A DNA stretch of 64,000 nucleotides from Ureibacillus massiliensis 4400831 = CIP 108448 = CCUG 49529 (GTDB lineage: Bacteria; Bacillota; Bacilli; Bacillales_A; Planococcaceae). The DNA lies in contig NZ_JPVQ01000008.1 of NCBI RefSeq assembly GCF_000772965.1, forward strand, positions 1 to 64,000, read 5' to 3'. Numbering within the stretch: the first letter of the stretch is position 1; each line of letters begins with the position of its first letter. The translations under genes were made by a program, and so were the position numbers. The notes beneath the pieces were generated by a model that did no database searches, was not told the DNA's origin, and saw only the letters and a list, made by a program, of their open reading frames with translations. Below, piece by piece: positions 2,395 through 53,543 of this stretch.

Positions 2395-4525
2395 TGTAAA
2401 AGAAAAAGATGAACAAGAGTTTCGGGTTGAAGGTTTTTCTTGTGCCAATTGTGCGGGCAAATTTGAACGGAACGTAAAGGAGCTACCCGGTGTTCGTGAT
2501 GCAAAGGTGAATTTTGGAGCATCAAAAATCTCAGTTGTAGGAAATGCAACCATTGAGGAGCTTGAAAAAGCAGGTGCGTTTGAAAACTTAAAAATTTACC
2601 CAAAGAAAACAGCTGGACAAAGGGGCACAGCTCAAGATGAAGGTAGAAAAGAAACTAAGATTTCATTTATAAAAAAATATGAGGAAGTATTATTTTCTGC
2701 ATTATTAATTGTCATAGGATTTATTTCGTTATTTACAAATGGTGAAGAAAATATTGTGACAACGCTATTGTTTTTAGCTGCAATCTTAATAGGTGGCTAT
2801 TCATTGTTTAAAGTGGGTTTTCAAAACTTACTTCGTCTTGATTTTGATATGAAAACTCTGATGACTGTGGCCATAATTGGTGCCGCTATTATTGGAGAAT
2901 GGGCTGAAGGTGCTATCGTTGTTATATTATTTGCCATTAGTGAAGCGTTGGAACGATTTTCAATGGATCGAGCACGACAATCCATTCGCTCCCTTATGGA
3001 TATTGCTCCTAAAGAAGCACTCGTTCGTCGAAATGGGCAAGAAATATTAGTAGATGTTGAATCCGTTGCAATTGGAGACGTTATGATTGTAAAACCGGGC
3101 CAAAAAATTGCAATGGATGGTTTGGTTGTTAAAGGATATTCTGCAGTCAATCAAGCAGCCATTACTGGCGAATCTGTACCAGTTGCAAAAGAAGTTAATG
3201 ATGAAGTATTTGCAGGAACATTAAATGAAGAAGGTTTATTAGAAGTAAAGGTAACAAAATTAGTTGAAGATACAACGATTGCAAAAATTATTGAACTGGT
3301 TGAAGAAGCGCAAGGTGAACGAGCGCCATCTCAAGCCTTTATTGATAAATTTGCTAAATACTATACACCACTCATTATGATTATTGCTGGATTGGTAGCG
3401 GTAATTCCTCCTATATTGTTTAATGGAGATTGGGGAACTTGGGTGTATCAAGGGTTATCTATCCTTGTAGTAGGTTGTCCGTGTGCTTTAGTTATTTCAA
3501 CTCCAATTTCAATCGTTTCAGCTATAGGCAATGCTGCAAAAAAGGGTGTCCTTATAAAAGGCGGTATTTATTTAGAGGAAATGGGCGGCATAAAGGCTAT
3601 TGCTTTTGATAAAACAGGGACATTGACTAAAGGTGTACCGGTTGTGACAGATTTCAAATTATTAAAAGATTTATCGAGTGAGAAAGAGTTACTTGCTAAT
3701 GTGGCAGCGCTGGAAAACCGTTCTGGCCATCCACTTGCATCTGCAATTGTTAGGAAAGCAAATGAAATGGGAATTAGCTACAAAGGTATTGTCGTTGAAA
3801 ATTTTGAATCTATCACAGGTAAAGGGATAAAAGGTTCAATTGAAGGAATTACTTATTATATTGGTAGTCCAAAACTATTCCAAACAACAACGGTTGATTT
3901 TCCCGAAATAACTGCCTTTCAAAAAGAGGGTAAGACGGTGATGGTAATGGGTACTGAAGAAGAAACCTTAGCTATCATTGCTGTTGCAGATCAAGTTCGA
4001 GAGTCAAGTAAAGGTGTTATAAGTAAACTTCATTCACATGGTATTAAAACCATTATGTTAACAGGGGACAATGAATCGACTGCAAAAGCAAAAGGACATG
4101 AGATTGGTGTATCTGATGTTCAAGCAGAATTAATGCCAGAAGACAAATTAAACTATATTAAACAATTACGATCTGAATATGGCAAAGTGGCAATGGTAGG
4201 AGACGGAGTTAACGACGCACCAGCACTTGCAGCAGCTACAGTTGGTGTTGCAATGGGTGGTGCTGGAACAGACACTGCATTGGAGACAGCTGATGTTGTG
4301 CTAATGGCAGATGACCTAACGAAGCTACCATTTACAATTAAATTAAGTCGAAAAGCATTGGGTATTATCAAATCGAACATAATCTTTGCCCTTGGTATAA
4401 AGGTATTAGCGCTATTACTAGTTGTTCCGGGATGGCTAACGCTATGGATTGCTATTTTAGCTGACATGGGTGCAACCTTGTTAGTTTCGTTAAATAGTAT
4501 GAGATTATTAAGGGTTAAAGAATAA
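2387..4525 (+). CDS. cadA: CadA, P1B-type Cd/Zn/Pb-exporting ATPase
   Basis: This 712-residue heavy-metal P-type ATPase exports divalent soft metals across the cytoplasmic membrane. In order it shows: an N-terminal HMA domain with [12 protein letters not shown] near residues 16-27; membrane helices; the actuator motif TGES near 260; the transmembrane metal site CPC in VGCPCALV near 364-366; the phosphorylation loop DKTGTLTKG near 407; the hinge GDGVNDAP near 604; and C-terminal helices. All catalytic motifs are intact and the length is normal for CadA. The TTG start overlaps the end of cadC and follows AAGGAGG, so the pair is translationally coupled. CPC together with the CadC partner favours Cd/Zn/Pb over Cu. 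Confidence 0.95.
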
Positions 4526-46420: not shown

Positions 46421-47032
46421 ATGGTTATTGATAAAATACGAGAGAGATTTAATCAAAATCAGCCACTTTTTATAGGGGAGGATACGGCATTTCAATCTGC
46501 AGTGCTTATTCCGCTAGTGCAGGTTGATGGAGTGTGGCACGTCCTATTTGAAGTGCGCTCATTGAAAATGCGAAAACAGCCTGGAGATATCAGTTTTCCT
46601 GGCGGCAAAATAGATCCAACAGACAAATCTCCTTTGGAAGCAGCAGTACGGGAGACAGTCGAAGAGCTAGGAATTAAATTTGAATCAATCAACGTCATTA
46701 GTGAGTTAAGTCCACTTGTCACAAGTCCGAAGTTTGTTGTATATCCCTTTGTTGCAATACTGGACGTGAAGCAAATTCAGATCAATGAACATGAAGTGGA
46801 AGAAGTGTTTACGATTCCTTTAGATTGGCTGTTGGAATACGAGCCTTATATGCATTATGCATCGGTTGAAGTAAAACCATCAACTGATTTTCCGTTTCAT
46901 AAAATTATGAATGGTGAACAATATGAGTGGAGAACACGCTCCATGGAGGAATGGTTTTTTGACTATGAAGACTACACGATTTGGGGGCTAACGGCAAGGA
47001 TTTTAAAATACTTTGTGGAGAGATTGAAATAA
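46421..47032 (+). CDS. NUDIX coenzyme A pyrophosphatase
   Basis: This 203-residue NUDIX hydrolase is of the CoA diphosphatase group (YeaB/NudL-like). The group pattern before the box (VRSLKMRKQPGDISFPGG) is followed by the NUDIX box near residues 62-85 (KIDPTDKSPLEAAVRETVEE, LG). It should cleave CoA or oxidised CoA to 3',5'-ADP and phosphopantetheine. The usual LR-H-GQ reads MRKQPGD here, a mild departure. The ATG follows GGAAGGGGG. It is a single gene with a strong terminator. Confidence 0.88.
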   Translation: MVIDKIRERFNQNQPLFIGEDTAFQSAVLIPLVQVDGVWHVLFEVRSLKMRKQPGDISFPGGKIDPTDKSPLEAAVRETVEELGIKFESINVISELSPLVTSPKFVVYPFVAILDVKQIQINEHEVEEVFTIPLDWLLEYEPYMHYASVEVKPSTDFPFHKIMNGEQYEWRTRSMEEWFFDYEDYTIWGLTARILKYFVERLK

Positions 47033-47074
47033 TGGAGTAGCCTTAAGGAAAATGGATTTGACTAAAGTGATGAA

Positions 47075-47107
47075 AGGTGTGCAAAATCAGATTTTGCACA
47101 CTTTTTT
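47075..47107 (+). terminator. Terminator after the CoA pyrophosphatase gene
   Basis: The perfect stem GTGTGCAAAAT / ATTTTGCACAC has a 3-base loop and a T6 tail. Confidence 0.92.
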
Positions 47108-47156
47108 ATTAGGCATGAGGCGATATGAATAGAAGTTTTTTTATAATTTTGTAGTG

Positions 47157-47415
47157 GGGCTATTATTGTTCCGGGATTGTCTATTATATGCTTCATTCTG
47201 TCTATTATCCTGGAACTTCTGTCTATAATGGATTGGCACTGCGACAGATGTCTATTAAGTGTATTGGCTTGTCTATTATCCAGTGAGGTCTGTCCATTAA
47301 CTTGCCGCAAAATGCAATGTGTATATTATCGGACTGTTTTGTCTATTATCCAATGAGGGTTGTCTATTATCGTCCAAAATCCGGTCTATAATCCACCAAA
47401 CGCAGTTTATAATTT
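47157..47415. repeat. Helically phased short direct-repeat array, consensus TGTCTATTATCC
   Basis: Twelve copies of a 12-base motif begin at 47157, 47178, 47199, 47220, 47249, 47270, 47291, 47320, 47340, 47361, 47383 and 47404. A weaker thirteenth lies near 47428. The steps are 20-22 bases except for two of 29, while the roughly 9-base spacers are unrelated to each other. Core positions CTATTAT are best kept. The spacing changes rule out a protein-coding repeat. It fills most of the 418-base gap between the CoA pyrophosphatase gene and the small membrane protein gene. Confidence 0.9.
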
Positions 47416-47450
47416 TCTGGCGTCCGTTTGCTATTAGAAATGTAAACATT

Positions 47451-47627
47451 TTATTTTCTTGCCTTCCTCCAAATCAAACAAGCGATTAATAAAATTACTC
47501 CAACTATTCCACCAATCATTTGGTCTAAAAATAGTTCACCTGTTCGAACGTAACGAAGAATAAAAGTGCCTCCAAAAATAATAATGATAATGAGCGAAAG
47601 TCGAATTAAAAATGAGTTGACGGCCAT
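47451..47627 (-). CDS. 58-residue two-helix membrane protein
   Basis: The frame encodes an N-terminal helix (FLIRLSLIIIIIFGGTFIL), a polar loop RYVRTGELFLDQ, a second helix (MIGGIVGVILLIACLIW) and a basic RKARK end. AAAGAGG precedes the ATG at good spacing. The layout is a clean two-span hairpin, so it is a real gene. I do not recognise a family. It is divergent from the sodium channel gene, with about 147 bases between the starts, and just downstream on its strand is the phased repeat array. Confidence 0.65.
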   Translation of the reverse strand: MAVNSFLIRLSLIIIIIFGGTFILRYVRTGELFLDQMIGGIVGVILLIACLIWRKARK

Positions 47628-47774
47628 ACTTATACCTCTTTTCGTGTAAATATTTTTTGATTATATAAAAATCAGTGGCTTCTTTTTGAGCCCTTTTAAT
47701 ATTAAACTAGTATTAACTTCTATTAGAGTAACATAAGCGGTGAAAATAACTGAAGTTTAAGAGAGGAAAAATGT

Positions 47775-48593
47775 ATGAAATTAAAAGGTATTGTTGAACA
47801 TCGATTATTCTCTACTGGAATTATGTTGCTCATTCTTGTAAATGCAATTTGCATCGGCTTAGAAACGTATCCGGAACTACATAGTACATATCAAGATTTG
47901 TTCATCATTGTGGATCGCGTTATACTAACACTATTTTGTATTGAAATTGCACTAAAATTGGTCGCTTATAAAGGTAATTATTTTAAAAGTGGTTGGAACG
48001 TAATGGATTTTTCTATCGTCGTCCTAAGCTTACTTTTTATTAATACGAGCTTTGTGAGCGTCTTACGAATTATTCGAGTGTTAAGGATTTTAAGAACTAT
48101 TTCAGTTTTCCCTTCATTAAGACGGCTAGTAAACGCACTGTTCATGTCTATACCTGCATTGGGCAGTACTTTTTTATTAATGGTGATTGTATTTTATATT
48201 TATGCCATTATCGGTACAACGTTTTTTGCAGAGGTTACACCGGAATACTTTGGAAGTCTGGAATTGGCATTATTAGCATTATTTCAAGTATTTACATTAG
48301 AATCATGGGCAAGTGCAATATTCAGACCAATTTTTCTAGAGTTTGGTTGGTCTTGGATATATTTTAGTTCCTTTATAATTATTAGTGCGTTTATCGTCGC
48401 AAATATCTTCTTTGGAGAAATCGTTAATAATGCACAGAAAATATCTCAGGAGATGGAAGTAGATAATAAAGAACTTGTGAATGAATTAGAAGGGATCCAA
48501 GAAGAATTAGCCAATGTTCGAGAGTCTAATAAGCAGTTACAAGAAAAAATGAACCAGCTGATGAACGCCCTACTGCAGAAGCAAAAAGGTTAG
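47775..48593 (+). CDS. NaChBac-type voltage-gated sodium channel
   Basis: This 272-residue, single-domain six-helix channel is the length of NaChBac from alkaliphilic Bacillus. The S4 voltage sensor has regularly spaced arginines (LRIIRVLRILRTISVFPSLRR), and the pore has the sodium-selectivity sequence FTLESWAS at residues 173-180, identical to NaChBac at TLESWAS. A C-terminal coiled coil (about 235-268, LEGIQEELANVRESNKQLQE) should hold the tetramer. In B. pseudofirmus the homologue (ncbA) supports motility, chemotaxis and pH homeostasis at high pH. The ATG follows GAGAGGA. Confidence 0.93.
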   Translation: MKLKGIVEHRLFSTGIMLLILVNAICIGLETYPELHSTYQDLFIIVDRVILTLFCIEIALKLVAYKGNYFKSGWNVMDFSIVVLSLLFINTSFVSVLRIIRVLRILRTISVFPSLRRLVNALFMSIPALGSTFLLMVIVFYIYAIIGTTFFAEVTPEYFGSLELALLALFQVFTLESWASAIFRPIFLEFGWSWIYFSSFIIISAFIVANIFFGEIVNNAQKISQEMEVDNKELVNELEGIQEELANVRESNKQLQEKMNQLMNALLQKQKG

Positions 48594-53048: not shown

Positions 53049-53543
53049 TTGGTGTATTATCCGCCAGATAATTCAAGAAGACCAGACTCGCCTATGTATC
53101 CACAAAGAACGGGACCAAGATCTGCCAATCTAATGCGTAGACAGGATGCGGAGTATTTTTACCCTAATGAAATGCAAATGGGCAGTAATTCAAGAGGGAA
53201 TCCACGATTTCGCCCTGAAGCAATTAGAAGAGAGGATGCGGCCTACTTTTATCCGAATGAAATGATGAGAGGGCAGGGAGCACCGAATTACTATCCGAAT
53301 CAAATGAGAAGACAAGGAGCGCCTGAATATTATCCGACTGAGATGAGAGGTCAAGGAACTCCTGACTATTATCCAAATCAAATGCAAGGGCAACAACCTC
53401 CTCCAAATCAACAACGGAGACCCTCTCGTTTTGAAAGATTGCCGGATCATTTTAATACATTAGTAGGTCATATGGGAACAATCAACAACGGGATACAAAT
53501 GATGAGGCAGTTTGGTTCCATTTTAAATATTTTTAGAAGATAG
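53049..53543 (+). CDS. VrrA/YqfQ-like repeat protein, probable spore-associated
   Basis: This 164-residue, very hydrophilic protein has degenerate 11-17-residue repeats centred on YYPNEM/YYPNQM (copies near residues 36, 62, 77, 88 and 100), rich in Gln, Arg, Pro, Gly and Tyr. A short amphipathic C-terminal region (HFNTLVGHMGTINNGIQMMR, then QFGSILNIFRR) follows. This layout, with tandem polar repeats and a helical tail, resembles VrrA/YqfQ or YppG spore proteins, though I cannot fix which. The start is TTG, or the adjoining GTG, after AGGTGGTG. The repeats should be prone to length variation. Confidence 0.6.
   Translation: MVYYPPDNSRRPDSPMYPQRTGPRSANLMRRQDAEYFYPNEMQMGSNSRGNPRFRPEAIRREDAAYFYPNEMMRGQGAPNYYPNQMRRQGAPEYYPTEMRGQGTPDYYPNQMQGQQPPPNQQRRPSRFERLPDHFNTLVGHMGTINNGIQMMRQFGSILNIFRR

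Follow-up and report, generated by a model that had tools for sequence, protein, structure and literature searches.

Arrays of a short motif at a 21-bp pitch in intergenic gaps of Ureibacillus massiliensis and related bacteria

The array at 47157–47415 and described repeat families

In phased operator arrays such as plasmid iterons, protein sites stand about 20–22 bp apart on one face of the DNA, and CRISPR repeats and spacers measure some 20–40 bp each. REP/BIME elements, DUS and rDNA terminator arrays are intergenic and often lie behind genes or terminators, and DUS have species dialects. Bacteroidota have 7-nt simple repeats in which the repeated heptamer also makes up the spacer. The STAR elements of staphylococci carry a GC-rich 14-mer, T(G/A/T)TGTTG(G/T)GGCCC(C/A), separated by spacers of at least 40 bp (PMC3532100). 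The TAACTGA direct repeats of Beggiatoaceae and others are heptamers lying mostly just upstream of start codons (PMC4679880).

The array described here occupies positions 47157–47415, on the plus strand, of the window, the whole stretch of 64,000 nucleotides that was analysed. Motif matching and autocorrelation confirmed what a sequence-only reading had reported, namely twelve copies of a motif in a single gap; they are degenerate copies of the 12-mer TGTCTATTATCC. Three units match it exactly, unit 3 (47199–47210), unit 6 (47270–47281) and unit 9 (47340–47351), and unit 10 (TGTCTATTATCG, 47361–47372) carries one mismatch. Two mismatches were found in units 2 (TGTCTATTATAT, 47178–47189), 8 (TGTATATTATCG, 47320–47331) and 11 (GGTCTATAATCC, 47383–47394), and three in units 4 (TGTCTATAATGG, 47220–47231), 5 (TGTCTATTAAGT, 47249–47260) and 7 (TGTCCATTAACT, 47291–47302). 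The first unit (GGGCTATTATTG, 47157–47168) and the last (AGTTTATAATTT, 47404–47415) are weak, since they depart from the 12-mer at 4 and 5 positions respectively. From unit to unit the steps are 21, 21, 21, 29, 21, 21, 29, 20, 21, 22 and 21 bases, units 4 and 7 each being followed by a 29-base step.

The regularity of the array was evaluated by autocorrelation of the gap 47033–47774. Lag 21 was the top lag, with a score of 31, and the best-lag maximum over 1000 dinucleotide shuffles was no higher than 15, so that none of the shuffles attained the observed value. Motif matches with up to 2 mismatches numbered 14 in the 64-kb window, 7 of them within the array, while the same count in 100 shuffles of the window had a mean of 7.0 and a largest value of 12. 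Over the twelve units, the mean pairwise identity of the 11-base motif is 0.78. The spacers, compared in the seven steps of 21 bases, where each measures nine bases, are only 0.25 identical, where composition alone predicts 0.26, and the view that the spacers are unrelated is therefore borne out. A recent tandem duplication would have left neighbouring spacers alike, so the window array is not one, and Tandem Repeats Finder did not report it because its spacers are unlike one another. Their GC content is 0.48, against 0.33 in the flanks. These data demonstrate that an array with a 21-bp pitch exists at this place.

As had been argued from the short spacers, the locus is not CRISPR-like in its spacing: its motif measures 11–12 bases and its spacers 8–17 bases, and a Pfam scan of the proteins flanking the arrays found no Cas among them. 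The heptamer organization of the Bacteroidota repeats was not found either, the window spacers being at chance identity. Unlike plasmid iterons, the arrays occupy many chromosomal loci, and no replication gene lies beside the scanned ones. They share with REP/BIME elements, DUS and rDNA terminator arrays an intergenic place, often behind genes or terminators, but they are non-palindromic and phased, and isolated copies are not enriched. In being short intergenic direct repeats with locus-specific spacers, variable copy number and stable places, they resemble STAR elements, the nearest of the known kinds, and, like these, they are found at many intergenic loci with variable copy number (PMC3532100). 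The 14-bp STAR consensus is absent, the motif here being the AT-rich TGTCTATTATC; the spacers, of about 8–10 bases and relatively GC-rich, repeat at a 21-bp pitch; and the motif varies between species of one genus (PMC3532100). With the TAACTGA repeats, the next nearest kind, they have in common that short words form intergenic direct repeats, with many sets per genome, whereas the units here exceed a heptamer in length, recur every 21 bp and often follow terminators (PMC4679880). We place the array of the window among interspersed intergenic direct repeats, as a novel variant of that kind, and not with the STAR elements. A search of an open-access library found no account of these arrays; some of the motif strings do occur in papers there.

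The array had also been said to separate a CoA pyrophosphatase gene from a channel locus, and this stands, with two additions to the gap. Upstream lies the NUDIX hydrolase gene (46421–47032, plus strand, 203 aa, Pfam), which is the pyrophosphatase of the earlier reading, followed by a terminator-like inverted repeat and T-run between it and the array (47073–47105, plus strand, by eye). On the other side, a 58-aa minus-strand ORF (47451–47627), hydrophobic by eye and oriented towards the array, precedes the ion transport protein gene (47775–48593, plus strand, 272 aa, Pfam). The latter protein was found in just 2 of the 25 genomes of the genus. Elsewhere in the window, a tandem repeat of period 39 and 3.4 copies (53249–53384) lies within the ORF 53049–53543.

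Further arrays in the genome and at orthologous places

The exact two-unit pattern occurs as 68 pairs in the whole genome, and its reversed pattern not at all; with up to 3 mismatches, at least 107 pairs were found, against 6 for the reversed pattern. This genome-wide search for the motif at 21-base spacing yielded nine more loci, with 17, 33, 18, 4, 4, 8, 8, 45 and 7 units. Contigs C55 and C145 each end in one of these loci, and the two are probably halves of a single array, because an array of the nearest relative (L325 in G013) is flanked by ORFs of equal lengths. The unit of the family combines a motif of 10–13 bases (TTTGTCTATTATC in this species) with a free-to-vary spacer of about 8–10 bases, at a pitch of 21 bp. 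The arrays are dispersed over intergenic places, and the window array is a small, partly decayed member of this family. Pfam revealed no common theme among the flanking genes (GatB, enolase, UvrC, a RecD2-like helicase, OTCase, YlaH, NUDIX and others). Judged by eye, many of the arrays follow terminators, and at L065 one of the four units falls, also by eye, inside a terminator hairpin. A terminator hairpin is common to just two loci of this genome and their two counterparts in G013. In 19 of 20 arrays from this genome, G013 and G011, the spacers exceed the flanks in GC content.

Two readings of these arrays have to be weighed above all. Our best guess, to which we give somewhat less than an even chance, is that they are sites of a putative DNA-binding protein between transcription units. 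It is favoured by the 21-bp pitch and by a motif that is kept while its spacers vary freely; the nine further loci, the GC-richer spacers and the arrays at orthologous places in relatives also count for it. The main rival, nearly as likely although it too falls short of an even chance, is a functionless or selfish STAR-like satellite that grows and shrinks by slippage or recombination where insertions are harmless. The likeness of the motifs would then reflect common descent, and position and pitch would be inherited. Against such a satellite stands the window array itself, in which the motif has been retained although spacer identity is no higher than chance. In its favour, the large arrays contain higher-order repeats (21,21,21,30 in L068; 21,21,21,21,18 in L062 and L061), and spacer classes recur between arrays, by eye, as if copied.

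Comparison with G013 bears on both readings. All six orthologous places that were compared carry arrays there too, between flanks that are 86–94% identical, with altered unit counts (17/8, 33/26, 4/20, 8/7, 8/16 and 45/24 for U. massiliensis/G013). Such copy-number change again fits a satellite. Four of the six pairs were aligned, giving ratios of same to different columns of 278:25 for the motif, 206:61 for the spacers and 2124:173 for the flanks; since units were picked by consensus likeness, unit choice and alignment favour the motif in these counts. The motif was more conserved than the spacer in three of the four aligned pairs, which speaks against a functionless satellite. In the fourth, L065–L071, conservation of the spacers equals that of the motif (0.90 against 0.88), and this counts against binding.

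Two places have lost or lack the array in G013, which a satellite would allow and which counts against binding. Downstream of enolase, where U. massiliensis has 18 units, the G013 region is without a lag-21 signal, and at the window locus a single exact motif copy (L089, near 5953) was found and no array. Between the NUDIX and channel genes of G013 there is a 675-aa MHYT-GGDEF-EAL gene (L089, 6151–8178), preceded by the motif copy; at the corresponding place, the window has only the array and the small ORF.

Helical pitch, motif turnover and spread

Two helical turns per step had been proposed for the array, with 29 bases as a step close to three turns. The first part was borne out: lag 21 is the top lag in the window, and 117 of 168 distinct spacers, taken from 20 arrays of this genome, G013 and G011, give a step of exactly 21. 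The second part did not hold, since 29 bases correspond to 2.8 turns, and steps of 31–32 are almost absent elsewhere (1 of the 168). Among the same spacers, 29–30 occurs in 23, 18–19 in 12, 20 in 2 and 22 in 3; the exceptional classes (18–19 and 29–30) are not whole turns and fit helical phasing poorly.

Pitch was further evaluated without use of the motif in a 2-Mb sample, to which G002, G013, G021, G009 and the Sporosarcina-like G267 each contributed 20 stretches of 20 kb. The scan found 40 arrays, of which 7 were set aside as coding and 33 non-coding ones kept. In 25 of the 33, where about 6.6 are expected, the best lag corresponds to an integral number of 10.5-bp turns to within 0.1 turn; the lags are not independent, most being supplied by two pitch classes (21/42 and 52). 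The chief lags are 21, 42, 52 and 104, and the misses are 40 (twice), 55, 60, 79 (twice), 82 and 114. Divided by three, the lags leave remainders in the proportions 13, 14 and 6. Helical phasing is thus supported by this test and triplet phasing is not. The window array fell below the threshold of this test and reached the threshold in another scan.

The regions downstream of gatB and of enolase were compared in all 25 genomes of the genus, one enolase region being too short. Lags of 19–23 exceeded the maximum of 100 shuffles in 8 of 25 gatB and 9 of 24 enolase regions, and in 12 of the 25 genomes when both are taken together. In most of these the top lag is 21 or a multiple of it; behind gatB in G003 the peaks are at 41 and 20. 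The remaining 17 gatB and 15 enolase regions are below the shuffle limit, which counts against binding. The gene-sense motif changes from genome to genome: ATAATAGACA in U. massiliensis (G000), ATATCAGCCA in G002, TAATCGCCA in G011, TATTAGCCA in G007, AATCCGCCA in G021, ATAATAGAA in G017 and G003, and ATTAGTCAA in G010. By eye, these dialects share a skeleton such as ATnnGnCAAA. The motif therefore turns over between species, and the persistence of the pitch despite this change argues against a satellite, whereas the presence of several different motifs in the one genome G021 counts against binding. The sequence-only reading had pointed to a -10-like hexamer on the minus strand of each unit; the gene-sense motif of relatives reads GATATCAGCC, AATCCGCCA or ATTAGCCAA at the same place, and this part of the reading was not upheld. 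A promoter array was rejected as GATAAT is not kept in the relatives.

Beyond the genus the distribution is patchy, as expected of a satellite. Pairs of the degenerate motif GTCYRWTAWC set 21 bp apart were found in 16 of the order's 261 genomes, in 7 of 19 genera, and in 3 of 398 genomes of a class-wide sample, one of which has a single pair. The reversed pattern matches five genomes of the order once each, and hence single matches may be due to chance. Clusters of at least three copies occur in 6 of the 7 matching genera; G182 and G248 have single pairs only. Behind enolase in two other genera, 4 of 29 and 4 of 30 genomes were above shuffles at some lag, of which 3 and 2 have lags near 21 or 42, with different words. 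Among the 80 matches listed by a scan of named genomes, seven loci proved to be arrays on reading, one each in Sporosarcina koreensis, Lysinibacillus odysseyi, a Lysinibacillus MAG, Bacillus sp. REN16 and Ornithinibacillus caprae and two in Fredinandcohnia onubensis; many of the remaining listed matches are heptamer repeats or lone pairs. Also among the matches listed, a Bacteroidetes MAG (L134) and a Clostridiales MAG (L161) have 21-bp clusters of 5 and 3 copies, which may reflect chance, contamination or wider spread. We infer from this distribution that the family is one of Planococcaceae. A mobile origin found no support: with the low-complexity filter on, no match was obtained for the window array among plasmids or for the 45-unit array among plasmids and phages. 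Six stretches of viral contigs hold a motif pair, and none of them is an array.

Possible roles and weaker alternatives

In the binding reading, the putative protein would take one motif per two helical turns, and neighbouring molecules, lying on nearly the same face, would bind side by side. A protein coat might then extend over 200–1000 bp between transcription units. It could serve as an insulator of these units against supercoils, read-through or polymerases that arrive head-on, or as an anchor of the nucleoid at that place. Motif turnover would represent joint evolution with the binder, while the pitch would stay, being set by the helix. Of the two possibilities first offered for the array, protein-binding sites and a curvature element, one-face binding sites appear to be the best fit, and curvature of the window array was not supported: it scores z -1.0 against shuffles, though two of five other arrays score high (z 4.4, 1.7, 1.6, 1.0 and 2.9), all with assumed wedge parameters.

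We consider an RNA-level element unlikely. An unstructured transcript of the motif strand would, on this explanation, load Rho or a single-strand RNA-binding protein and stop transcripts that reach the gap from beyond the terminator, which would suit the many arrays that lie, by eye, behind terminators. Over the first 400 bases the motif strand is indeed less folded than shuffles in 5 of 6 arrays (z 2.2 to 4.2), with inconsistent values for the opposite strand (z -2.0 to 1.4), but the window array folds like shuffles (z +0.5 and -0.4). Moreover, the direction of the motif relative to genes is mixed: of 14 codirectional gaps, 8 have, by eye, the motif running opposite to the genes and 6 in the same direction, a mixture that counts against binding too. 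On the same tally a polar barrier, proposed from arrays whose motif runs against the flanking genes, was rejected. Rho is not known to require a 21-base pitch with free spacers, which also counts against an RNA-level role, and Rfam gave no match for the window array.

A signal for DNA uptake or genome labelling, with dialects by species as in DUS, is very improbable. Motif dialects with a common skeleton, often near terminators, would suit it, but there is no excess of isolated copies: across 20 stretches of G013 and the window minus its array, the counts were 3, 4 and 3, where 1.9, 3.5 and 3.5 would be expected, copies of the L325 array being included. Least credible of all are coding repeats of seven codons (21 bases), which find stop-free frames in L068, L061, L063 and L343 and a 352-aa ORF in L068, but the G013 counterpart of that ORF is split into 125, 132 and 87 aa, the pitches of the 33 non-coding arrays have no triplet preference, and the window array, as had been said of it, is not coding: none of its six frames is free of stops, and the frame is lost at the steps of 20, 22 and 29. 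Nor is it a decayed known gene, all Pfam matches being below the cutoff.

Returning to bound arrays, these would provide natural experiments in which site spacing is held while the word changes, and would make testable both the co-evolution of a bacterial DNA-binding protein with its satellite sites and the insulation of transcription units by protein-coated spacers. Unbound, the arrays would be a clean case of bacterial satellite DNA in which motif and spacer evolve at different rates. A more specific proposal, which we regard as doubtful, is a class of satellites whose pitch is fixed by the helix at 2, 4 or 5 turns while the motif changes fast, each species having a different word in the same gap behind the same gene. 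If true, it would be a sign that bacterial satellite DNA and its binding protein are engaged in an arms race or evolve together, as at centromeres.

Other repeats were noted in the course of the comparison. A second class of intergenic arrays has a 52-bp pitch (five turns) and was seen in G002 (L299, L310 and L312), G013 (L317 and L318) and G267 (L417 and L430); several of its units have inverted half-sites, by eye, in G002 around TTTTGTCT. At L343 of G021 (2973–3233) there is a near-pure tandem of the 21-mer CTTGCTCGGATAACCCTCCCT with spacers that are alike, unlike those of the window array. Behind enolase, G005, G008 and G014 (L251, L255 and L257) carry arrays of AAGTGCATCAT-like words without a 21-bp lag, in which some words are inverted, by eye. 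Finally, four genomes of genus g24 (G084, G092, G076 and G068) have a second match to the last 40–45 residues of enolase, at a distance of some 1.5 to 3.4 kb from the gene itself.
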